Shown piece after piece: positions 7,422-31,201 of a DNA stretch of 52,560 nt. How positions within the stretch are numbered: the stretch's first letter is position 1; each line of letters begins with the position of its first letter. The DNA is from Pseudomonadota bacterium. GTDB taxonomy: Bacteria; UBA10199; 2-02-FULL-44-16; JAAZCA01. Made by a program: the position numbers and the translations under genes. Location: positions 1 to 52,560 of the forward strand of contig JAFGMW010000094.1 of assembly GCA_016927275.1 (NCBI GenBank), in the 5' to 3' direction. The notes under the pieces were generated by a model that saw nothing but the letters and a program-made list of their open reading frames with translations, had not been told where the DNA came from and ran no database searches.

Positions 7422-10400
7422 TTACTTCCAGACCTTCACGTTGTCTATCAGCACGCGGGCGGGTGACGGGGACTCGCCGCCGAGCCCTATCGGGTTGCCT
7501 ATGTATCGCTCGGCAAGCCGGTCTCCAGAAGAAGATTGTTGCTTCAGAACATTGTCGACATAGAAATTGATCCGTTGATCCGGCGTGATCTCGATCCTGA
7601 AGTTGTGCCACGCACCGGCGGGATATGAACCGGTGTGGTTCGCGGAAAACCAGCCCAGGTTGTCCTTGCGGTAACCATATGTTACCGAAGAAGGGGCATA
7701 TCTTATCCAGACTCCGTAATCGTAGTAGCACCCCTTTGTCTCGTAGGGGTTCGTCTCGGGATGGCCCTCGAGTATCCCGAAGGTCGCCTCTCCGCTGCTC
7801 TGTATGTAGATGTCCGCTGAGATGTTGAGGCCTTCCGAGTAGTCGAACGCGTCCTTCGTGTACGCCCCTGTTTTGCAGCCGCCGATCTCGCCGTTGTCGT
7901 ACGACGGCTTCGGTCTGCCGTAGAAAGTGTAGATCGCGGGCAGCTGGTCCGCCGGAATAGGGCCGGAATTGTCAGCTGCAACGATGTTCCATTTGTCCAG
8001 ACCGGACGCGAAATCGTCCAGGAACGAGTCGAGCAGCGCCGGGTCCTCCGCCCCTATCAGGGGCATGTGGTAACCGCTGCGCTCCAGCCCCGCCAGCAGC
8101 CCCATGGCCTGGGACCAGCCAAGCGGCCGGGCGGCTCCGCCCTGGCCCTCCGGATCGTTTGCAGCATCCCCCCAGTGCTCGTCCTTGAAATACTGCTGAG
8201 GCGTCAGCATATAGTATATGCCTCCGAGATATACATACGGCTTGTAGAGCATGGAGGTGCGGAAGGCTTCGTCCTGGGCCCCGAACTCCGGGTGCACCAC
8301 GCGTGCCGCATAGAGGGCCGAATATAGATAGCGCGGGACCCAGAGCGAGCTGTCCGCCGAAAAGGAGTCGAGGTCGGAGTGGGTCGCGGCGGTGCGCCAG
8401 TAAAAAGATTGCACCAACGGGTCGTCCAGCGGAAAGAGGTTGAAGGGCATCGAGAAGGCCATGATCATCTCTCCGTCCTCGTCGCTGAACTCCGTCAGCC
8501 CGCTGACCGAGCATGCGATCGCCAGCTGCGCGATGTCGTAGGCGTCGGCTCCGTACTTCCTCCGCGCATGGCAGTCGCCGGAGCTGCAGAGCTGGGACGT
8601 TACGGCGTCCTTGATCCGAGCCGCTGCCTCGCGGTAGCCGTCCGCCTTCGACGGGGCGGCGGCGTCGATCATCTCGGCCGCTGCCAGGAGCCCCGCGTGC
8701 GCCGCGGCGTTCGTGTAGAGGGACTGGCCTATGTCCTTTAAGGGATTTTCGTGCCAGTCGAGGCTGGGCGAGATCAGGCCGTCTGCGCAGATCCTGCTCA
8801 GCACGTAGTCGGCGAGGTCGGTTATGTCCGATGCGCCTATGCCGGAGGGCAGGACCCCCGTCCTCTTCCAGTACAGCCACAGGCCCCACAGGACCGTTGG
8901 CATCTGGTCCTCTTCCAGGAAAGAGTAGCCCAGGAACTCGAGGGGCTCTCCGGTCAGGCTGGAGTAGGCCTGCACCCACTTTCCGTCCTGCCTCTGCGCC
9001 CTATTGAAGAGGAATTCGGAGAAGAACTTCTCCGCGATCTCCTCGTGGCCGGCCATGATGTGGGCCGCGGCCTGAAACACCCCGTCGCGCGGCCACGAGA
9101 AGTAGTAGGTGGGCTCGTGGCTGGGGGCCGCGATTATCGCACCGGTGCGCCGGTCCGCCAGCATCCTGAGCGTTATCAGCGGCACCAGGTAAGGGCTGTC
9201 TTCCGGGATGTTGGAGGTCCACAGGTAGTCATACAGCCAATGGTCCAGGGTCGCGGCCTTCATGGCGTCGGACCCTGCTCCGGCCGCCGAATCCAGCGCC
9301 GCGGCGCAGGTGGTTTCGGAATCGCATCCGGCCGTGATGACCGCCACCCTCCCGTCCGACGGGATCGGCCATTCTGCCAGACCGGGTTTGACGCTCGTGG
9401 GGTTGCACTCGGCGGAGGGGTAGAGCCTTCTTACCTCCTCGAGCGAAGAGATTTCGTTGTCGCAGGTCATCGCCAGGCGCTCCCCGCCCGAGCCGATAGC
9501 CGTCATCGCTATCGCATACGCCGGCGCCTCCGATCTCGTCCACGTGAGGCGGTTCGATGCGCAGGCCTGGGTCTGCTCGTTGAACTTCCACTCCCTGAAA
9601 AAGGGGTAGTGGACGTTGACGTTGTAGCGGGAGTAGACGGCCAGCCTCGTGGCCGGATCGGAGGCCCCGCCGCACAGGTCGCCTGCCGCGACCTGGAAAT
9701 CGCGCACCAGCATGTTGGCCCTCTCGGAGTCGCTTTCAAACGATTCCCACGGCACGAAGGCCTTTTCGACGATCGTGGTCCCTGCGCAGGGCCCGAGCCC
9801 GGAGTAGGTTATCTGCGCCACCGGTGCGCCCTTTGAGATCGAGGTGCCCTCGTATCTCACGTCAACGGACCAGCGGGCCGGGTCGCTGAACCAGTGGTAT
9901 GATCCGTTCGCGCGCACTCCTCCGAACGAGCCCTGGAAGGGTTTCATCCACTCCGCCGCCATCGACAGATAGGGGATGTGGTTGTAGGCGCCGACGGAGG
10001 GGAACCACAGGGCGTTGAGCCTTCCGTCGCCCGTGAAGTTGGCGGTCATCTCCCCGTTGCCGACTATGAGCACGGTCGGGTTTATGCCCTGGCTCGTGAT
10101 CTCGTTGCCGAGCCCTCCCTCTACGATGCCGTACAGGGTGGAAACCTGGCTGCTGGCCACCGAGTCGATGAACTGCAGGGCGCCGCAGTAGGCGTTGTCG
10201 GCCGCGTCCTCCATCTCCAGGGTGAAGGTCCCCAGCATGTTGCCCGCCTCGTCGAACAGATCGGTGGCGACGACGGTGACGGTGCCGGTGAACGTTATCG
10301 CTCCGTCGATGGCGACCTCAAGCGAGTGTGTGCCCACGGCGAGGACCGCGGTGAAGACGCCCTCCGCGTCCGTGACAGCCACGACAGGGTCTGAGAAGAA

Positions 10401-10595
10401 CGTGAGCTCGACGTCCGGTGCTCCGATCCCCTCCGAGCCTGTCACGGCGCCCATTATCTTAACGAGCTGCTGATTCCCCGATTCGTCAGGGTCAGGCGTG
10501 CCGGCGTCAGGGGAGGTTCCGGACCCTCCGCAGCCGAGGTAGAGGATCAGCAATATCGGGATTGCGACGAGGAACCTGATTCTGGCAGCCTTCAT
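7422..10595 (-). CDS. GH15 (glucoamylase-like) lipoprotein with C-terminal lectin-like domain
   Basis: A 1057-aa lipoprotein. The start at 10595 gives a lipobox LYLGC (Cys22) and a GGGAGG ribosome site; the longer frame is a shadow running into a repeat. Residues 45-130 resemble a carboxypeptidase-regulatory/Ig-like domain. The central part carries the GH15 marks YYFSWPRDG (around 497-505), EEDQMP (561-566) and RPLGWSQA near the C-terminal third. The last 150 residues are a concanavalin/LamG-like domain (ISADIYIQSSG to ARVLIDNVKVWK). GH15 enzymes invert alpha-glucosidic bonds of starch, trehalose or similar glucans. It is probably a periplasmic or surface hydrolase; no sugar transporter is adjacent. 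Confidence 0.8.
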   Translation of the reverse strand: MKAARIRFLVAIPILLILYLGCGGSGTSPDAGTPDPDESGNQQLVKIMGAVTGSEGIGAPDVELTFFSDPVVAVTDAEGVFTAVLAVGTHSLEVAIDGAITFTGTVTVVATDLFDEAGNMLGTFTLEMEDAADNAYCGALQFIDSVASSQVSTLYGIVEGGLGNEITSQGINPTVLIVGNGEMTANFTGDGRLNALWFPSVGAYNHIPYLSMAAEWMKPFQGSFGGVRANGSYHWFSDPARWSVDVRYEGTSISKGAPVAQITYSGLGPCAGTTIVEKAFVPWESFESDSERANMLVRDFQVAAGDLCGGASDPATRLAVYSRYNVNVHYPFFREWKFNEQTQACASNRLTWTRSEAPAYAIAMTAIGSGGERLAMTCDNEISSLEEVRRLYPSAECNPTSVKPGLAEWPIPSDGRVAVITAGCDSETTCAAALDSAAGAGSDAMKAATLDHWLYDYLWTSNIPEDSPYLVPLITLRMLADRRTGAIIAAPSHEPTYYFSWPRDGVFQAAAHIMAGHEEIAEKFFSEFLFNRAQRQDGKWVQAYSSLTGEPLEFLGYSFLEEDQMPTVLWGLWLYWKRTGVLPSGIGASDITDLADYVLSRICADGLISPSLDWHENPLKDIGQSLYTNAAAHAGLLAAAEMIDAAAPSKADGYREAAARIKDAVTSQLCSSGDCHARRKYGADAYDIAQLAIACSVSGLTEFSDEDGEMIMAFSMPFNLFPLDDPLVQSFYWRTAATHSDLDSFSADSSLWVPRYLYSALYAARVVHPEFGAQDEAFRTSMLYKPYVYLGGIYYMLTPQQYFKDEHWGDAANDPEGQGGAARPLGWSQAMGLLAGLERSGYHMPLIGAEDPALLDSFLDDFASGLDKWNIVAADNSGPIPADQLPAIYTFYGRPKPSYDNGEIGGCKTGAYTKDAFDYSEGLNISADIYIQSSGEATFGILEGHPETNPYETKGCYYDYGVWIRYAPSSVTYGYRKDNLGWFSANHTGSYPAGAWHNFRIEITPDQRINFYVDNVLKQQSSSGDRLAERYIGNPIGLGGESPSPARVLIDNVKVWK

Positions 10596-10756
10596 GGGGC
10601 CTCCCTTTTTCAGGCGCCCCGGCAGGTCTGGGATGCCGGGGCAGCGTATCTCCCCCCCGGATGCGCATGTTCTATAGTAATGATCGCATGGATTTACAAG
10701 GCCGTTGTACGAAAAGGGCGGAAAGTGGGAAATTCGCCTGCCAGGGAGGTTATCGC

Positions 10757-10796
10757 CGGCCTGTCCTGAGCGCAACCGCTCCGGTAGATTCAACAC
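10757..10796. repeat. REP-like intergenic repeat
   Basis: GGCCTGTCCTGAGCGCAACC is the kind of GC-rich repeat that, read on the minus strand, gives the spurious peptide LRSGQAG seen in many environmental genomes. It sits between divergent lipoprotein genes. Only one clear copy is in the window, so the assignment is tentative. Confidence 0.3.
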
Positions 10797-22123: not shown

Positions 22124-22498
22124 ATGCAATATTCGATCGCATTGGACCTGCAAAAGAGGATGTGCGAGATCGTGCGCAGGCTGGGTCTTGCGCATGTCGA
22201 TTGCAACCGGGTCGTCTGTTTCAGGAGCGTGGGGAGCAAGACCAAAAGGGTCATAGCCAGATGCCATGCCCTGCCGAAGATCATGCAGCTGGCCATGGAG
22301 GTGAAGGCCTGGTATGCGATCGAGTTCCTCGAGCGCTTCGAGCGCCTCACCGAGGCCGACCAGGACATGACGATCATCCATGAATTGATGCACATCCCGA
22401 AGACCTTCGGCGGCGGCTTCAGGCACCACGATTTCGTCTCCCGCAGGAACGTGGAGAAGATGTATAAGACGTTTCTGCAGTCCCGGGCTGCATCGTGA
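22124..22498 (+). CDS. Putative metallopeptidase (HELMHIP motif)
   Basis: A 124-aa protein with the zinc-binding motif HELMHIPKTFGGGFRHHD (HExxH plus a downstream His), as in the putative metallopeptidase family found in phages, archaea and some bacteria. Residues before it include a basic/hydrophobic helical region with CNRVVCFRS. It lacks a signal peptide. Ribosome site is weak, but the ATG at 22124 is the only good start. The family's substrates are not established. Confidence 0.75.
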   Translation: MQYSIALDLQKRMCEIVRRLGLAHVDCNRVVCFRSVGSKTKRVIARCHALPKIMQLAMEVKAWYAIEFLERFERLTEADQDMTIIHELMHIPKTFGGGFRHHDFVSRRNVEKMYKTFLQSRAAS

Positions 22499-22873: not shown

Positions 22874-25800
22874 TCAGGAGTGCTCATTGGAGTTCGCCTC
22901 GTCGGCGACATCCGCATCCGGCTGCTCTTCGGTCTCCGGGACGGAGAAATCGACAGGATCGATGTTGAATATCTCGTTGAAGACGATGTCGAAGTCAGGC
23001 TGGCGCCCGTGGCTCTTTATCCGCTTCTCATAGGCCGCGAAAGAGGTTTTCAGGGCGCGCCTCACGCGTTTGATTACCACTCTGCGCATGGGATGTCTCA
23101 TGCCGGACTCATCCGTTATTCCCGCCCTCTTCTCGACTTCATTCGGATCGATGTCGAGGAGCTGCAGGATCCACGAGTTATACTTGAGGAAATCGCTTAT
23201 CATGCCGCCGAACCTCTCGCTCCCCCTGGCGAGGACCAGCACCTCCAACAGCGGTTTCAGGTGCGCGCTGTTGTCTGCCGATGGCGCGTCCATCCTTATG
23301 AGGTGGAAGAGCACGTCGAGTTCGCCTTCCGTGAGCTTTCGATTGTCCCGGCCCTTTTTCTTCTTCTCCTTGAACTTTTTGGGTTTCTTGCTTCTGGCGA
23401 TCCTCTCCTCGTTTTCGATCTCCCACTTTACCCTTCTGCCCTCTTCAACCTCGTCGATCGCCTTGCCGTCTAGGAGGTCGTCATAATCGTCCATGATGAT
23501 CTGATAGATGTTCTGGTAAAAATAGGTGTTCACGATGTGAGGGAAGACGGGGGGACTGAACGCCCTGGTGCAGGACCGTGCGGGCCACAGGAGGTCCGAG
23601 GCTTCGGCATGGTCCATGAAAAGATGGCCGAGATGCATGGACTGGCCGGAGATCTTTAATTTGTCCCTCAGCGCATCGAGTTTTTCCGAGATCTCCTTGT
23701 TGCCTTCCTCTGCGGTCATCTCACCGTCCTTGACCTTTTGCGTTATGCCGTAAATTTTGACTTCGACATCACTCATATCCTGAAGGATCGGATCGCGCTC
23801 CCAACTGGTCCCGCTTATCTCGTTCCACGTGGCTGTGGCGGATCCGTTGCCGCCGATGTTGTTGACCAGCTCCATTGCGGCCACCCCTTCGTTGGTGTCC
23901 CATCCCAGATAATACCTGAGCGAGGAGCCGAGGGGGTCGTAGATGAATGACCTGAAAATTCTATTCGATGAATAAGATGACGTAAAGATGGCGCCGAGGC
24001 CGCTCAGGAGGACTTCGAGGCCTGCCCTGTGAATGGGATACCCGGCCTTGCCGCTGTCCTCCCAGGCCTGTTTCATTCTCTCTACCAGGGGGATCTTCCC
24101 CTTCAGAACGCCGCTCATGAGCAGCGTTATCATGAGAAACCCCATAGTCATGAAAATGCCCCTTGTGAAGAGCAGGGCGATGTTCTTCGGGTCGTCCAGA
24201 TTGCTCTGAATGACTTTCCCGAGGGGGGAGGTGAGGGCGTTGACCATGATCATCAGGAATGCGAGATTGTAATCGACCTTTCTGGGGTCGAGCGCTTTGA
24301 AGAGAGAAATCACGGACTGCTTAAAGAGACTCCACAGGTTTTCGGCGCCCACCGGGTCATGGCCTGCGAATATGCCGAGTTGCGATGTGAGCGAATGGAA
24401 TACGCGCGGCCCCAGGGTCCGGTCCACCTTTGCGAGCCCTGAGTTGAGCAGCAGCATCAGCGCGCCTCCGTAGAATATGCAGGACCTGATCACCCTGTCC
24501 AGCCATGGGTCCATGCCCTCAGGCTGCATAGCGTTGAGCAAAGATGCATCTGCCGGGATCTGAGCGTTGGAAACCGCAGTTCCGAGAAATGCGGCAGCGG
24601 GTATTGCAAGGAAGCTGAACAGGACCGGCCACCAGGTTTTTGTGGTCGCCCTGTTGATCTTCGGCACGAAGAGGAGGAGGAAATAGAGGAAAGCGACAAA
24701 GGAGGGGTGTCTCATCGCATCCTTCACCATCTCGAGCCAGTCTGCGTTCAGCAGTTTTGTCATGAGATAGGTCGGCAACTGGCCGCTTTCCATGCTCAGG
24801 ACGTGCCCTATGGACTGCACATTGTCCTGGAGGTTCTGAATGCTCAGGGGTTCGACGAGGCTGCTGTGGAGAGATGACATCCAGCCCGGAATGTTTTTTA
24901 TGATATTCCCATAGCCTTCAATAAATGCACAGGCGGTGTCGACGAAACTGGTCCCTATGTCGGGCCCGTTGCTGATGATTAGCATCGGCACTAACCAGAG
25001 CGCTGATTTCTCGAACATCAGAATCAGTTTGCTCGCGTCATCTATGTAATCGACCGCGTCCCTTTTGGGCAGACCGTATTTGAAGGCGGTTTTGGCCTGC
25101 TCCGTTTCCCATCCCCGCTTCAGCATGTTTATCAGATAGACCGCTGCTGCGGTGCCGCTGCCCACCACTATGCCGGGCCACTCAAAACCGCTCAGGATCG
25201 CATCGATCAGCGATCCCGCCACGAGGCCGGTGGCGCCTGCCTTGAGGGAATCGACCAGGCCTTCCGAACCGGCGTTGCGGACCGCTTCCACGGAACGGCA
25301 GATGAGCCCGGATAAGAGGGAGACCTTTTTGCCGAGATCACCCAGCTCCTCATCGTCATAGATGCGCATTCCGTCGGAAAAATCATTCAGGGCCGGATGC
25401 TTCAACACTTCCCGTGCGCCGGACGTCATTTCGAAAGGGGCGCTCGTCGCGATTCGGGAAAAAGGGAGAGCAGATATCAGGTAGCCCGTGCCCAGGAAGA
25501 GGCGGGTTGCGGCCGATCGGTATGAGGCCACCAGATTTCTGTACCTGTTCAGATATTCCTCGATGCGCTTTGCGTCTGTGTGGCTGGCAAATTTCGCTAT
25601 TATCTTGTCTATGCCCTCTGGGACATGGATTGCCTGAATATCATTCAGGAGCTCTCCGATCGATCCTATGTGCTTCATGACAGCCGCATTGTCTTGGCGG
25701 TGGTGCGCGTAGAAGAAGAGCCGTGACATGAGCTCGATGCAGCTTATTCCTGCGAAGAGATGGAGCTCCTTGATCTCGTCATCGACCGCCACGCCTTCGT

Positions 25801-26620
25801 CGCGGAGCGCCTGTTGCCACGGGATTTCGCTTTCCTGCTCCAGCGGCCCATGAGCGCCCTCCGCTCGACTTTGAGCAAGCGCCTTTTGCTCTTCGGCATA
25901 TCTCTCTCCCAGAGTCTTGAACTCGGCAAGCATCTCATCGCAGCGCTTCTCCAGGGTCGCGATGTCCGGATTCGCGGCGTCGGACGTATAGCCGGCTATG
26001 TTCTTGGCCTTGAGTATTTTGGCCTTCACCAGGTCCAGTTCGGTATAGCCGCCTGCAGGTGGATTTTTCAGGAAATAGTCGAGTCTGTGCACGTTCTCCG
26101 CAGCGAACTTAGAGTCAGACAGGTTCGACGATTCGAGGACTGCCTCGGTGACCAGTATGGCGCCGTCGTTTATGTGCTGGTAAAGCGGCGTGGAAAAAGG
26201 GGCAGCGTCGATAGCGGTGTGAAGCTCGTACAGGGCCAGACGGTAGCTGCGAGCTGCGGCATCGAACTCAAAATCGTTTCGGGCTTTTCTCGCGCTGTCG
26301 ATAAGATCCCGGACCTGCTCCATTCGGGCTTTCATCTCCCGGGAAAGCCGGACGCTTTCGGCAAATCGCTGCCCGGCTGTGATCTTTGAGGCGCCGAACC
26401 GCCTTTCAAATCGCGTCCTGAAAGACATCTCCACCGGATCAAACGAATCGTCTGTGACGGAGCTTGTGCGGGCCATCCTTGCGGGGGAACTCCGGGCGAG
26501 GTCTTCAAGTGAGCGCGCGTACGGGCAGTTCGCGGCGATCGACCCCGGTGAAATGAAAAATGCAGGCGATGCAGCCGTATTCACCGGCAGGATGCTTTGA
26601 GCTGTTATCGGCCTGTGCAT
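22874..26620 (-). CDS. Giant multi-pass membrane protein, paralog 2 (unknown family)
   Basis: A 1248-aa protein; ATG at 26620 has AGGAGG five bases upstream. Residues 1-350 are mostly helical and soluble (TPR-like heptads; FDAAARSYRLALYELHTAID). The middle, about 360-900, has some eight to ten hydrophobic segments (GLVAGSLIDAILSG, FVAFLYFLLLFVPK, VLFSFLAIPAAAFLGTAVS, FMTMGFLMITLLMSGVLKG). The last 350 are soluble, very charged, with a KKPKKFKEKKKKGRDNR stretch and acidic tail. It shares the order LGWDTN, ATATW, WERD, LLWPA and SHGRQ with the upstream protein at 26657-29857, so they arose by duplication. I recognise no known family. No enzyme motif is visible. Confidence 0.8.
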   Translation of the reverse strand: MHRPITAQSILPVNTAASPAFFISPGSIAANCPYARSLEDLARSSPARMARTSSVTDDSFDPVEMSFRTRFERRFGASKITAGQRFAESVRLSREMKARMEQVRDLIDSARKARNDFEFDAAARSYRLALYELHTAIDAAPFSTPLYQHINDGAILVTEAVLESSNLSDSKFAAENVHRLDYFLKNPPAGGYTELDLVKAKILKAKNIAGYTSDAANPDIATLEKRCDEMLAEFKTLGERYAEEQKALAQSRAEGAHGPLEQESEIPWQQALRDEGVAVDDEIKELHLFAGISCIELMSRLFFYAHHRQDNAAVMKHIGSIGELLNDIQAIHVPEGIDKIIAKFASHTDAKRIEEYLNRYRNLVASYRSAATRLFLGTGYLISALPFSRIATSAPFEMTSGAREVLKHPALNDFSDGMRIYDDEELGDLGKKVSLLSGLICRSVEAVRNAGSEGLVDSLKAGATGLVAGSLIDAILSGFEWPGIVVGSGTAAAVYLINMLKRGWETEQAKTAFKYGLPKRDAVDYIDDASKLILMFEKSALWLVPMLIISNGPDIGTSFVDTACAFIEGYGNIIKNIPGWMSSLHSSLVEPLSIQNLQDNVQSIGHVLSMESGQLPTYLMTKLLNADWLEMVKDAMRHPSFVAFLYFLLLFVPKINRATTKTWWPVLFSFLAIPAAAFLGTAVSNAQIPADASLLNAMQPEGMDPWLDRVIRSCIFYGGALMLLLNSGLAKVDRTLGPRVFHSLTSQLGIFAGHDPVGAENLWSLFKQSVISLFKALDPRKVDYNLAFLMIMVNALTSPLGKVIQSNLDDPKNIALLFTRGIFMTMGFLMITLLMSGVLKGKIPLVERMKQAWEDSGKAGYPIHRAGLEVLLSGLGAIFTSSYSSNRIFRSFIYDPLGSSLRYYLGWDTNEGVAAMELVNNIGGNGSATATWNEISGTSWERDPILQDMSDVEVKIYGITQKVKDGEMTAEEGNKEISEKLDALRDKLKISGQSMHLGHLFMDHAEASDLLWPARSCTRAFSPPVFPHIVNTYFYQNIYQIIMDDYDDLLDGKAIDEVEEGRRVKWEIENEERIARSKKPKKFKEKKKKGRDNRKLTEGELDVLFHLIRMDAPSADNSAHLKPLLEVLVLARGSERFGGMISDFLKYNSWILQLLDIDPNEVEKRAGITDESGMRHPMRRVVIKRVRRALKTSFAAYEKRIKSHGRQPDFDIVFNEIFNIDPVDFSVPETEEQPDADVADEANSNEHS

Positions 26621-26656
26621 TTATTCCTCCTGACCGATGTCGCATCAGAACAGGAA

Positions 26657-29600
26657 CTATGCTCCCGTTTTTCCCATCACCTCGCTGTCGGCCAGAAAGA
26701 GGCCTTCGAACTGCACCTTCAGGAGCCCCTGTCTGCCGTGGCTTGCCACCCTCTGCTCGTATTTGTCGAATCGCTTCCTGACGCGGTTCTTGAACGCCCT
26801 CCTGGAGAGCCTCCTGAGCCTTTCGTTGTACGGCTTGTATTTTTCCAGGTTCACGTTCATAACCTCGGCTATCCATTGGTTCTCTTCGAAAAAAATCTGC
26901 AGACTCTTTCCGAACCGCCTGCTGTTCCTGGAGAGGGCGAGCGTCTTGACTATCGGCCTCATCGCCTCGTATCGGTTCGGGTCCCTGGCCTGATGCTCGA
27001 CGAAGTCGAGAAGCGATCCCAGATCCTTTGCGGTGAGCTCCTTGTCTTTGGCATCCATCAGGAGATCATGGAGGCTAGCGTAGAAGTCGACGTTGGGCAT
27101 CTGAGGATAGGAGGGTTGCCTGAACGATCTGCTGACCGCGTAAACGGGCCACAGCCTGTCCGAAAGAGACTTGTGGGCCATGAAGGGGTGGAGGACGTGA
27201 GTAACCTGTCCCGCCTTGCTGAAAAAGGCGTACATCTCATTCATCGCATCGTCCCGGTTCTGCACCTCTTCCTCGCGCTTCGCTTCCCTGCCGGCGGCTG
27301 CGGCGAGATCTAGGCCGGAAGTCAGATTGCCGATGTTGCGGACGATGGCCTCCCTCTCCCACACCGTGGCCGAAGACTCGGGCCATGTGGATGTGGCCAT
27401 GGCGTTCCCAGACAAGAAGCTCATCGACGAGTCTATCAGCTGTCCGCTGTTGGTGTCCCAGCCGAGGAGCGCCCGGAGCGATGCCGCCGGAAGATCCATC
27501 GTGAACTTTCTCAGGAGCCTGTTTTTGACATAGGGGACCCTGAACGAGTCGAGATATCCCATTCCCATTTCCAGCAGGCCTCGCGGGACCGAAAGACCCC
27601 TGGAGTCCTGCCACGACTCCCTGATCCTGGACCTCAGGGGAATGAAGCCGTTGAGGAGTCCTCCCACGGTTAGGGTCACTGGGATCAATCCCAGCGAGAT
27701 CGCCACCCCCTGCACGAGGCACTCGGCGACGCTATCGGCCCGTACGACACCCTGAGCCAGCCCCCCGATCGGCGACATGATGCCGGCTCCGACCACGGCC
27801 GCGGTCAAAGGCAACATGTAGATGTGCGGGTTTCTGGACGGGTTCATGGCGGAAACAGTCGCTAGGAGCGGATTCCTGGCCGGTGAGGAACGCCTCAAGG
27901 GGACGAGGCCGGCGGTCAACTGCATCATGAGCATGCCGCCCGCGATGATCGATGCCCGTTGTATCCTGTCAGCATATAGGTAGCTGTCGAATTTGTCGGG
28001 AAAAGACCCGGCATTTTGGCCGAGGATGTGCATGCCGATCTCCGCCGAGAGCATCAGCCCCCCCGGCAGGAAGACAGCGGTGAATCCGGAGAGGCTGCGC
28101 CGCAGGGATGGAAAGATGAGGTTGGCGGAGAGGAATGCCGCCGTGGCCTTCAGATAGGTGCCGTAGGCCAGATCAAGCGCGCAGTCCGGTGGCATGCCCG
28201 CGACCGACGCCGTCGCGTCGGCCAGAAACATCGAGGCGCCGGGCACGAACAGCAGCGACAGCCTTCCCAGTGATTCCCGCAGCTCTTTGCTGAGCGCGCT
28301 CGACGCCGCCAGCGCAGCGGACGCCGATATGAGGGTTTGATAGGCGGTCTGCAGAGCCTGTTCAGGCGTGATCGAATTCAGGGCATTCAGCGACTGGCCG
28401 GCGATGGAATGGAACCCGTCTGCTGCCATCGCTCCCAGCTGGGAGTATGCGGTGACGATCGCCTGTATTGTATCGCCGAATGTATGGATGCTTTCCGGCC
28501 CCGAGTTCAGCACAGCAGCAGGCAGCAACCATGTGGCCGCGTTGAGGCCGCCCCAGAGGATGAGGCGCGAGGCGTCCAGCGCAGACTCGGGGGCGGTCCT
28601 GTCGAATATCCCGGTCTTTGCGGCGTATCTGGCCTCCAGGGAGTTCCAGCCGTTCCTGAACCGGTTGATGCTGGTCAACAGGGCGGCGCCTGCGACGGCG
28701 GCCGCCACGGTCGATTCGCCTCCCATGCCGAAGAGCGCCGATGCGCCGAATCCGGCCGCCAGGCCGAAGAGGCCCGCGAAGATAGATTCCTTTATGCCCT
28801 TCGAGTGGGCGAGCGCCAGGGCGGCCTGGAGCCTCTTCATGTAGGAACCCTTGCTGGAGCGGAACTTGACCTCAGAGGGGGACAGGACCCTTGAGCTGTC
28901 GATGAACGGTTCGAACATGGGGTCGGTCAGCACCCTCCTCGTGCCCGCGGTGCAGGCGAACTGCCGTGTGGTCAGGGTGCGCGCACTCCGCAGCGAGGGG
29001 CCCCACAGCCCCAGCCTGGCAAGGAGGATGGCCGAATCCGCTATGTAGCTCGCGATCGCTTCGTTGCGGTCGTCGGTGAGGTGATCTGAGAGCACATCCT
29101 TTATCGTCTCCCTCTGTCGCTCTATGAGCAGGTTGCGCTCGTGGAAGTCGCGCCGGTTGTGCGCCATTGCGATCGAGCGCGCCAGAAGCTCAACGGACAG
29201 GAGCCCGGCGTAGAAGGAGGTATCGGGATCGTCGCCTGCGCCCGCATCTGAGCGGACGCGCTGGACCATCTCGTACGCCTCCTTGAGGAGGGCGCCCTTG
29301 GGCTGGCCTGCGGACATGGTGTGCTGCATGATCTTGTACGCCTTGATCATTGTGGCGCGCGCAATGTCCGAGAGGGTGCCCTCCGATTCCCTGATCTCCT
29401 CGATGAATCGGGTGAGGCGGTTGAGCATCTCCGGGACCTCTTCGGGACCCGAGAGGACCGCGGTCTCGAAGAGCGCCTCCTTGAAGAGGCCGTCGCCTGA
29501 CGGGATGTGGCGGTAGAGAGGGGCGTCGTCCTTGAGGTGCTCGAATGGGCTCTCCAGGGCGATGAGCGTTTCCCGGTAGTTCCGAAACGCATCCTCGAGA

Positions 29601-29857
29601 TTGCCCGAGCTTCGGGCCTGGCGGGCCTGCTCGAACCTCTTCTTCATGAGGGCGAGCTCGAACCTCGGAGCTTCGGAGATCCCCGCAATCCTCATCTCGA
29701 GCCTGCGGGCGTGGACGTCTTCGGAGGGGATGGCGAACGCGTCGCGAACCATGTCGCCCGATGAGAAGGTGGTATGTGCTGAGGGGACAGGGATGTTCCC
29801 GCGCGTGGTGAACACGGCGGAAAAGACAGGAGGGACGAATCTGACAGGAAGGGACAT
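26657..29857 (-). CDS. Giant multi-pass membrane protein, paralog 1 (unknown family)
   Basis: A 1066-aa protein with a GGGAGGA ribosome site. N-terminal residues 1-320 are soluble and helical (RFELALMKKRFEQARQARSSG, EDAFRNYRETLIALESPFE matches the paralog's FDAAARSYRLALYELHTAI). The middle has multiple hydrophobic segments rich in Ala/Gly (SIFAGLFGLAAGFGASALFG, STVAAAVAGAALLTSI, AAFLSANLIFPSLRRSLSGF). The C-terminal part carries LGWDTN, ATSTW, WERE, LWPVYA and YEQRVASHGRQ. It starts the two-gene unit; the second gene begins 36 bases after its stop. N-terminal residues MSLPVRFVPPVFSAVFTTRG are not a classical signal. Function unknown. Confidence 0.8.
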   Translation of the reverse strand: MSLPVRFVPPVFSAVFTTRGNIPVPSAHTTFSSGDMVRDAFAIPSEDVHARRLEMRIAGISEAPRFELALMKKRFEQARQARSSGNLEDAFRNYRETLIALESPFEHLKDDAPLYRHIPSGDGLFKEALFETAVLSGPEEVPEMLNRLTRFIEEIRESEGTLSDIARATMIKAYKIMQHTMSAGQPKGALLKEAYEMVQRVRSDAGAGDDPDTSFYAGLLSVELLARSIAMAHNRRDFHERNLLIERQRETIKDVLSDHLTDDRNEAIASYIADSAILLARLGLWGPSLRSARTLTTRQFACTAGTRRVLTDPMFEPFIDSSRVLSPSEVKFRSSKGSYMKRLQAALALAHSKGIKESIFAGLFGLAAGFGASALFGMGGESTVAAAVAGAALLTSINRFRNGWNSLEARYAAKTGIFDRTAPESALDASRLILWGGLNAATWLLPAAVLNSGPESIHTFGDTIQAIVTAYSQLGAMAADGFHSIAGQSLNALNSITPEQALQTAYQTLISASAALAASSALSKELRESLGRLSLLFVPGASMFLADATASVAGMPPDCALDLAYGTYLKATAAFLSANLIFPSLRRSLSGFTAVFLPGGLMLSAEIGMHILGQNAGSFPDKFDSYLYADRIQRASIIAGGMLMMQLTAGLVPLRRSSPARNPLLATVSAMNPSRNPHIYMLPLTAAVVGAGIMSPIGGLAQGVVRADSVAECLVQGVAISLGLIPVTLTVGGLLNGFIPLRSRIRESWQDSRGLSVPRGLLEMGMGYLDSFRVPYVKNRLLRKFTMDLPAASLRALLGWDTNSGQLIDSSMSFLSGNAMATSTWPESSATVWEREAIVRNIGNLTSGLDLAAAAGREAKREEEVQNRDDAMNEMYAFFSKAGQVTHVLHPFMAHKSLSDRLWPVYAVSRSFRQPSYPQMPNVDFYASLHDLLMDAKDKELTAKDLGSLLDFVEHQARDPNRYEAMRPIVKTLALSRNSRRFGKSLQIFFEENQWIAEVMNVNLEKYKPYNERLRRLSRRAFKNRVRKRFDKYEQRVASHGRQGLLKVQFEGLFLADSEVMGKTGA

Positions 29858-29905
29858 TCAATCCTCCCGACACCGCTCCACTCCCCCGTCGTTGAGATAA
29901 CTAAG

Positions 29906-29930
29906 AAAAAAAACAGGCCTCGCGGCCTGT
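29906..29930 (-). terminator. Rho-independent terminator, minus strand
   Basis: ACAGGCC and GGCCTGT (29913-29930) form a seven-pair stem with a TCGC loop. Read on the minus strand it is followed by eight U residues. It ends a minus-strand transcript arriving from above 29950, where only a 25-aa ORF is visible, and insulates the giant-membrane-protein genes from upstream transcription. Confidence 0.75.
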
Positions 29931-29949
29931 CTTTCTGCGTCTCTTGGGA

Positions 29950-30268: not shown

Positions 30269-31201
30269 TCAGATGTACTCGACGGTCGCTGGCGGCTTGG
30301 GCGTGAGGTCGTAGAGGCAGCGGTTGACGCCCGGGATGTCGACTATCGCCCTGCAGATCCTCTCGAGCTTCTCCCACGGCAGCCTCGTGGCGGTCGCCTC
30401 CCTCGCGTCCCTGCTCTCAATGCAGCGCACGACGACGATGTCGCCGTACTCGCGCCTTCCGTTGCGTATTCCCGTGGCCTTGTCGGTGAGCAGCGCAGCC
30501 AGGTACTGGAACGCGCCGGTGTCCTTGAGCTCATTCTCCACTATGGTCGTCGCGCGCCTGACCACCGCGAGCCTCTCCTTGGTCACCTCGCCCACGATCC
30601 TGGCCGCGAGCGCCGGCCCCGGGAACGGGATGCGCGCAAACACCGGCTCCGGGAGCCCCAGGGCCTTTCCCACCTCGCGCACCCCGTCCTTGCGCAGCGC
30701 CTTGAGAGGCTCGATCACCCTGTATCCATACTCCCTCTCGGGGTCGATGCCGAGCTGCTCCAGGATGTTGTGCTGGCGCTTGATGCCCGCCACGGTCTCC
30801 TCGATGTCGGTGAGGATGGTCCCGTGCAGCAGGTACTTGGCCCCGCTCTCCTTCACGAGCCTTCCGAACACGTCCTTGTAGAAGGTCGCTGTTATCGCGC
30901 AGCGCTTCTCCTCCGGATCGGTGAGCCCCTTGAGCGCCGCGAGGAACTCCCTGCGGCTGTCCACGAGCCTCACGGGGATGTTCATCTCTGCGAAGGTCTC
31001 GACCACCGCCTGCGGCTCCCCCTCGCGCATGAGCGCGTTGTCGACGAACACGGTCTTGAGGCGGTCGCCCAGCGCCCGGTGCGCGAGCACGGTCAGCACC
31101 GAGGAGTCGACCCCGCCCGAGAGGGCATTGATCGCGACCCCGTCTCCCACATCGTTCCTGATGACGCCTATCTGCTCTTCGATGAATTTCCTGCAGTCCA
31201 T
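30269..31201 (-). CDS. guaAB: GMP synthase ATP-pyrophosphatase subunit (stand-alone GuaA C-terminal part)
   Basis: A 310-aa protein starting at MDCRKFIEEQIG, equal to the ATP-PPase and dimerisation parts of GuaA without the class-I glutaminase domain. The PP-loop SGGVDSS is at residues 28-34; RIPFPGPALAARIVGEVT and the C-terminal DLTPKPPATVEYI-type ending are diagnostic for GMP synthase. It adenylates XMP and aminates it to GMP, in complex with a separate glutaminase subunit in organisms with the two-subunit (archaeal-like) type. No such subunit is in the window. GGAGGG precedes the ATG. A strong terminator follows. Confidence 0.9.
   Translation of the reverse strand: MDCRKFIEEQIGVIRNDVGDGVAINALSGGVDSSVLTVLAHRALGDRLKTVFVDNALMREGEPQAVVETFAEMNIPVRLVDSRREFLAALKGLTDPEEKRCAITATFYKDVFGRLVKESGAKYLLHGTILTDIEETVAGIKRQHNILEQLGIDPEREYGYRVIEPLKALRKDGVREVGKALGLPEPVFARIPFPGPALAARIVGEVTKERLAVVRRATTIVENELKDTGAFQYLAALLTDKATGIRNGRREYGDIVVVRCIESRDAREATATRLPWEKLERICRAIVDIPGVNRCLYDLTPKPPATVEYI

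Follow-up and report, generated by a model that had tools for sequence, protein, structure and literature searches.

The closest described systems to the membrane protein family reported here are the OPA antiporters (GlpT, UhpC/UhpT, and SLC37A4), the UhpB-UhpC pair, and the TPR proteins BamD and LGN. A true homologue of the OPA antiporters is the recurrent neighbour gene of this family. However, M1 and M2, the two members encoded in the window (the whole stretch of 52,560 nucleotides that was analysed), are not themselves MFS proteins, as no Pfam MFS match was found in M1, M2, or 11 members. As in the UhpB-UhpC pair, a large multi-helix membrane protein is found beside a UhpC-like MFS protein, but the giant proteins have a TPR-like helical head instead of a histidine kinase domain, and no histidine kinase or ATPase domain was matched by Pfam in M1, M2, or the members scanned. 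The head of M2 is likewise modelled as helical hairpins resembling the TPR arrays of BamD and LGN, although no sequence or fold score is significant, and in the giant family the head is fused to a multi-TM core. A further likeness, to sucrose-phosphate synthase/MshA-type GT4 enzymes, is that of a neighbouring GT4 and not part of M1 or M2.

The first-pass annotation had described two adjacent genes encoding proteins of 1066 and 1248 residues, and both ORFs were found where it placed them, on the minus strand (Table 1). M2 lies upstream of M1 in the direction of transcription with 36 bp between the ORFs, each ORF is preceded by a strong ribosome-binding site, and the third-position GC content (0.81 for M2 and 0.72 for M1) is coding-like for the window. 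Because a terminator-like hairpin directly precedes M2, the two genes probably form their own separate two-gene transcription unit. On the same strand, the upstream genes encode a PP-loop protein resembling GMP synthase (30272-31201, minus strand), which stands alone and carries the C-terminal domain of that enzyme, together with an EamA transporter and an M15 peptidase. Directly downstream of M1, a putative phage metallopeptidase domain (PF18894) is encoded at 22124-22498 on the plus strand, and elsewhere in the window an ORF of 1124 residues (7425-10796, minus strand) weakly matches glycoside hydrolase family 15.

Table 1. Features of the M1/M2 locus (positions in the window).
Feature	Position	Strand	Description	Basis
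M2	26657..29857	-	1066 aa; first gene of the probable unit	ORF, ribosome-binding site, codon GC, homologues
M1	22874..26620	-	1248 aa; second gene of the probable unit	ORF, BLASTP to M2 (E 2e-53), homologues
M1 ribosome-binding site	26626..26631	-	AGGAGG	Sequence
M2 ribosome-binding site	29863..29867	-	GGAGG	Sequence
Terminator-like hairpin	29907..29936	-	Directly upstream of M2; sets M2 apart from the upstream gene	Consensus scan, top of list
M2 helical head	28850..29674	-	Residues 62-336; TPR-like hairpins, predicted cytosolic	AlphaFold2, pLDDT mostly 70-89
M1 helical head	25421..26344	-	Residues 93-400	Alignment to M2 head
M2 membrane core	27653..28798	-	Residues 354-735; ~8 predicted TM segments and an extra hairpin	Hydropathy/charge
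M2 extra TM hairpin copy	28196..28363	-	Residues 499-554; duplicate of 559-623	Profile match
M2 most conserved post-core stretch	27353..27544	-	Residues 772-835	Alignments A1, A2, A5
M2 basic helical tail	26687..27100	-	Residues 920-1057; predicted cytosolic	AlphaFold2, pLDDT mostly 55-88

M1 and M2 are related well above chance: BLASTP aligns them over two collinear stretches, with E-values of 2e-53 and 7e-31 and 27% identity, and the motifs LGWDTN, ATxTW, WER, LWP, and SHGRQ follow one another in the same order in both, as had been proposed. The proposal that they belong to no recognised family also held. Neither protein had a match at the curated cut-offs of Pfam and NCBIfam, and none of 11 members scanned singly exceeded the Pfam cut-off. 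Sequence searches of the PDB with M1 alone, with the family profile, and with the head profile were non-significant (the best match, at E 0.01, was a designed protein), and a literature search returned nothing on the giant family. A viral origin was rejected, with no related locus in viral contigs and nothing below E 0.04 in PHROGs, as was a role in anti-phage defence, with zero matches to the PADLOC models. As judged against Pfam, NCBIfam, PHROGs, PADLOC, and PDB, the family thus appears new, although it might yet be assigned by a deeper search.

The predicted layout comprises a disordered leader, a cytosolic TPR-like helical head, about eight TM helices, and a basic cytosolic tail. The head-core-tail arrangement suggested by the first-pass annotation is predicted for both proteins, but the head of M1 is closer to 390 residues than to 330. 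Structure prediction modelled the M2 head with fair confidence and the tail at a pLDDT of mostly 55-88, but the model of the membrane core was unreliable (pLDDT ~40); the core of the closest relative, modelled as well, was unusable (pLDDT 46). Foldseek matched the head model to BamD and LGN with top probability (1.0), with no E-value below 1e-3, and no Pfam TPR profile matched the head significantly, the single-member hits to TPR_7 (E 0.097) and TPR_2 (E 0.38) falling below significance. The assignment of the modelled head as TPR therefore draws on fold shape rather than on a significant sequence match. For the core, family-averaged hydropathy and positive-inside loop charges indicate about eight TM helices, with the two termini in the cytoplasm. 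M2 additionally carries a copied TM hairpin, which matches profile stretch 504-559 at E 7.5e-9, whereas the best among 200 shuffles reached 0.024; this repeat is visible by profile but not by plain BLASTP self-comparison, and the profile gives a fainter indication of such a duplication in the G004 member.

Conserved residues outside the membrane core, noted previously, are borne out by the family alignments. The most conserved post-core stretch of M2 reads F..PY..NR..R..T.D...R..LGWDTN.G...N...AT.TWPE...WER, and the tail carries conserved FFxxN and HxR motifs. LGWDTN, WPExxGTxWER, and xHxF...H are largely retained family-wide, and SHGRQ is specific to M1 and M2. Residues invariant over both subfamilies are mainly Gly, Ala, Pro, Leu, and Phe together with two Arg. 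Since this set includes no obvious catalytic centre, the alignments favour a structural or binding role. It is also noted that several soluble sugar enzymes encoded in these genomes (L094:6272-8152, L092:9395-11458, L055:12138-13658, and L093:10316-12001) start with a leader rich in proline, serine, and threonine. Its composition resembles that of the leader of the giant proteins, and it could serve as a common targeting leader.

M1 and M2 proved to be homologous genes, but not simply a pair: the source genome contains at least seven paralogues, namely M1 and M2 on C94, M3 on C72, M4 and the truncated M5 on C22, the truncated M6 on C111, and the divergent M7 on C54. When related genomes were searched, the family was found in 7 of the 46 genomes of UBA10199, the presumed class of the source, including all four of the source's GTDB family. 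No convincing member was found outside the class among 385 genomes searched; a frame of 1838 residues in G092, matching in the head region only (E 1.3e-4), was marginal and taken as chance. The named genome contigs searched contained two family loci, which are those of G036 and G007. The family comprises two subfamilies, joined by profile comparison (E 1.5e-39). A recent tandem duplication of M1 and M2 was rejected, because the tree does not allow them to be sisters (p-AU 0.014), and the five testable paralogues of the source genome were also rejected as one clade (p 0.02). The paralogues are therefore old, and M1 and M2 are ancient paralogues in a lineage-restricted family of ~1000-residue membrane proteins. 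M7 (L057:8521-11625), of subfamily 2, adjoins not sugar genes but what we take from N-terminal sequence to be dnaA, dnaN, and recF.

Both GlpT-like antiporter genes of the source genome directly follow family members (M4 and M3). Class-wide, the gene immediately next to the antiporter encodes a family member or distant homologue at 11 loci, and at several more one lies one to three genes off. The antiporter is homologous to GlpT (E 4e-93) and retains the residues aligned with the known substrate-binding positions of GlpT. The linked GT4, which resembles sucrose-phosphate synthase/MshA-type enzymes below curated cut-offs, has orthologues (52-60% identity) in exactly 5 of the 46 class genomes, and all five carry a family member on the contig of the GT4 gene, at a distance of less than 8 kb. 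Other recurrent neighbours are GalT, UDP-glucose pyrophosphorylase, phosphomannose isomerase, and nucleotidyltransferases. The second subfamily occurs at glycogen/maltose-phosphate loci alongside genes for GlgA, maltokinase, and amylase-like proteins, and at one of these loci a sucrose-type transporter is encoded as well. The linkage is indirect evidence, since loci within one order share descent and are hence not all independent. The M1/M2 locus itself has no antiporter or GT4 neighbour, and M6 and M7 have no antiporter neighbour.

Giant proteins adjoin antiporter genes in other families of the class as well. One such group is distantly homologous to the family, with an hhalign E-value of 4.9e-6 and a probability of 86%, whereas controls with reversed and shuffled sequences reached 0.013 at best; the match covers the final part of the head together with the first TM hairpin. 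Profile search found its members in 12 class genomes, and in the stretches fetched an antiporter is beside the gene or one gene away in 8 of the 12 and in neither position in the other 4; because the group came to light through its adjacency to the antiporter, its linkage does not count as independent evidence. In G004, the gene of this distant group (L032:11935-16611) starts with two CxxCH motifs and has an in-frame TAG between its body and the homologous C-terminus. In G043 and G045 the same antiporter is adjoined by members of a second family (L098:355-1818 and L101:9079-11454; 37% mutual identity), which was not matched to the giant one.

Given the repeated linkage to antiporter and sugar genes, the most likely of the roles considered for the M1/M2 family is that of a membrane partner or scaffold in the transport of sugar phosphates and the metabolism of nucleotide sugars, a reading that we regard as possible yet short of probable. 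Alternatively, the giant protein may itself be a membrane enzyme, or the flippase or polymerase, of a surface or membrane-bound glycan, fed nucleotide sugars by GT4, GalT, and the isomerase. The recurrence of these genes and of nucleotidyltransferase is compatible with such an enzyme, as are the polar GWDTN, xHxF, and D900 that subfamily 1 keeps in its post-core segment. However, these residues are incompletely kept even there and absent from subfamily 2, no polymerase, flippase, ligase, or GT family was matched in Pfam or NCBIfam, and the neighbouring antiporter serves sugar phosphates rather than a lipid-carrier system, so that we consider this alternative unlikely. To be judged equally improbable is that the sugar linkage is incidental and that these are lineage-specific membrane proteins of another role whose neighbourhoods are shared by descent in one order. 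M1/M2 and M7 do lack sugar neighbours, and much of the linkage falls within a single order with loci that are not all independent; nevertheless, two subfamilies and the distant group are all linked, across several families of the class and with the genes differently arranged.

By analogy with UhpC and UhpB, the antiporter homologue might sense its ligand and the giant protein relay the signal inside. The best NCBIfam match of the antiporter is indeed UhpC (the glucose-6-phosphate receptor subfamily), albeit below cut-off, and the one-to-one adjacency of an antiporter and a large multi-helix protein with a cytosolic head would suit such an arrangement. Yet Pfam detects neither a histidine kinase nor a receiver or DNA-binding domain in any of the members, the true transporters GlpT and SLC37A4 align well with the antiporter, and M1/M2, M6, and M7 have no antiporter beside them, all of which makes a sensing role quite improbable. 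The envelope, secretion, or cell-contact system proposed by the first-pass annotation is the least credible, since, for all that the proteins are large, multi-copy, and divergent with a proline/serine-rich leader, neither homology (PADLOC, PHROGs, and Pfam) nor the annotated neighbours of the family loci, among which are no secretion, adhesion, or contact genes and the recurring ones belong to sugar metabolism, point in that direction.

If the giant proteins are instead membrane partners or scaffolds, the membrane core would associate with the GlpT/UhpC-like antiporter, which is of the OPA type (sugar-phosphate/phosphate). The head and tail would keep at the membrane the soluble enzymes for interconverting hexose phosphates and nucleotide sugars, such as the GT4 glycosyltransferase, GalT, phosphomannose isomerase, and enzymes of glycogen metabolism. 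We infer both the physical partnership and the scaffold role from gene linkage, which is not the same as physical contact, and likewise that M1 and M2 do the same job as their antiporter-linked paralogues. A bolder and rather doubtful version is that a giant TPR-headed membrane protein and an OPA antiporter form a class-wide candidate obligate complex, which would couple hexose-phosphate import to a membrane-bound enzyme assembly and would have radiated into paralogues for different sugar pathways.

In summary, even without a mechanism, M1 and M2 represent a conserved family of ~1000-residue proteins outside Pfam, NCBIfam, and PDB, with a testable guilt-by-association lead. If the partnership is real, it would constitute a new kind of accessory protein for the GlpT/UhpC/SLC37A4 transporter family. 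It would also show that in an uncultured deltaproteobacterial lineage the uptake of sugar phosphates and the synthesis of nucleotide sugars are organised at the membrane.
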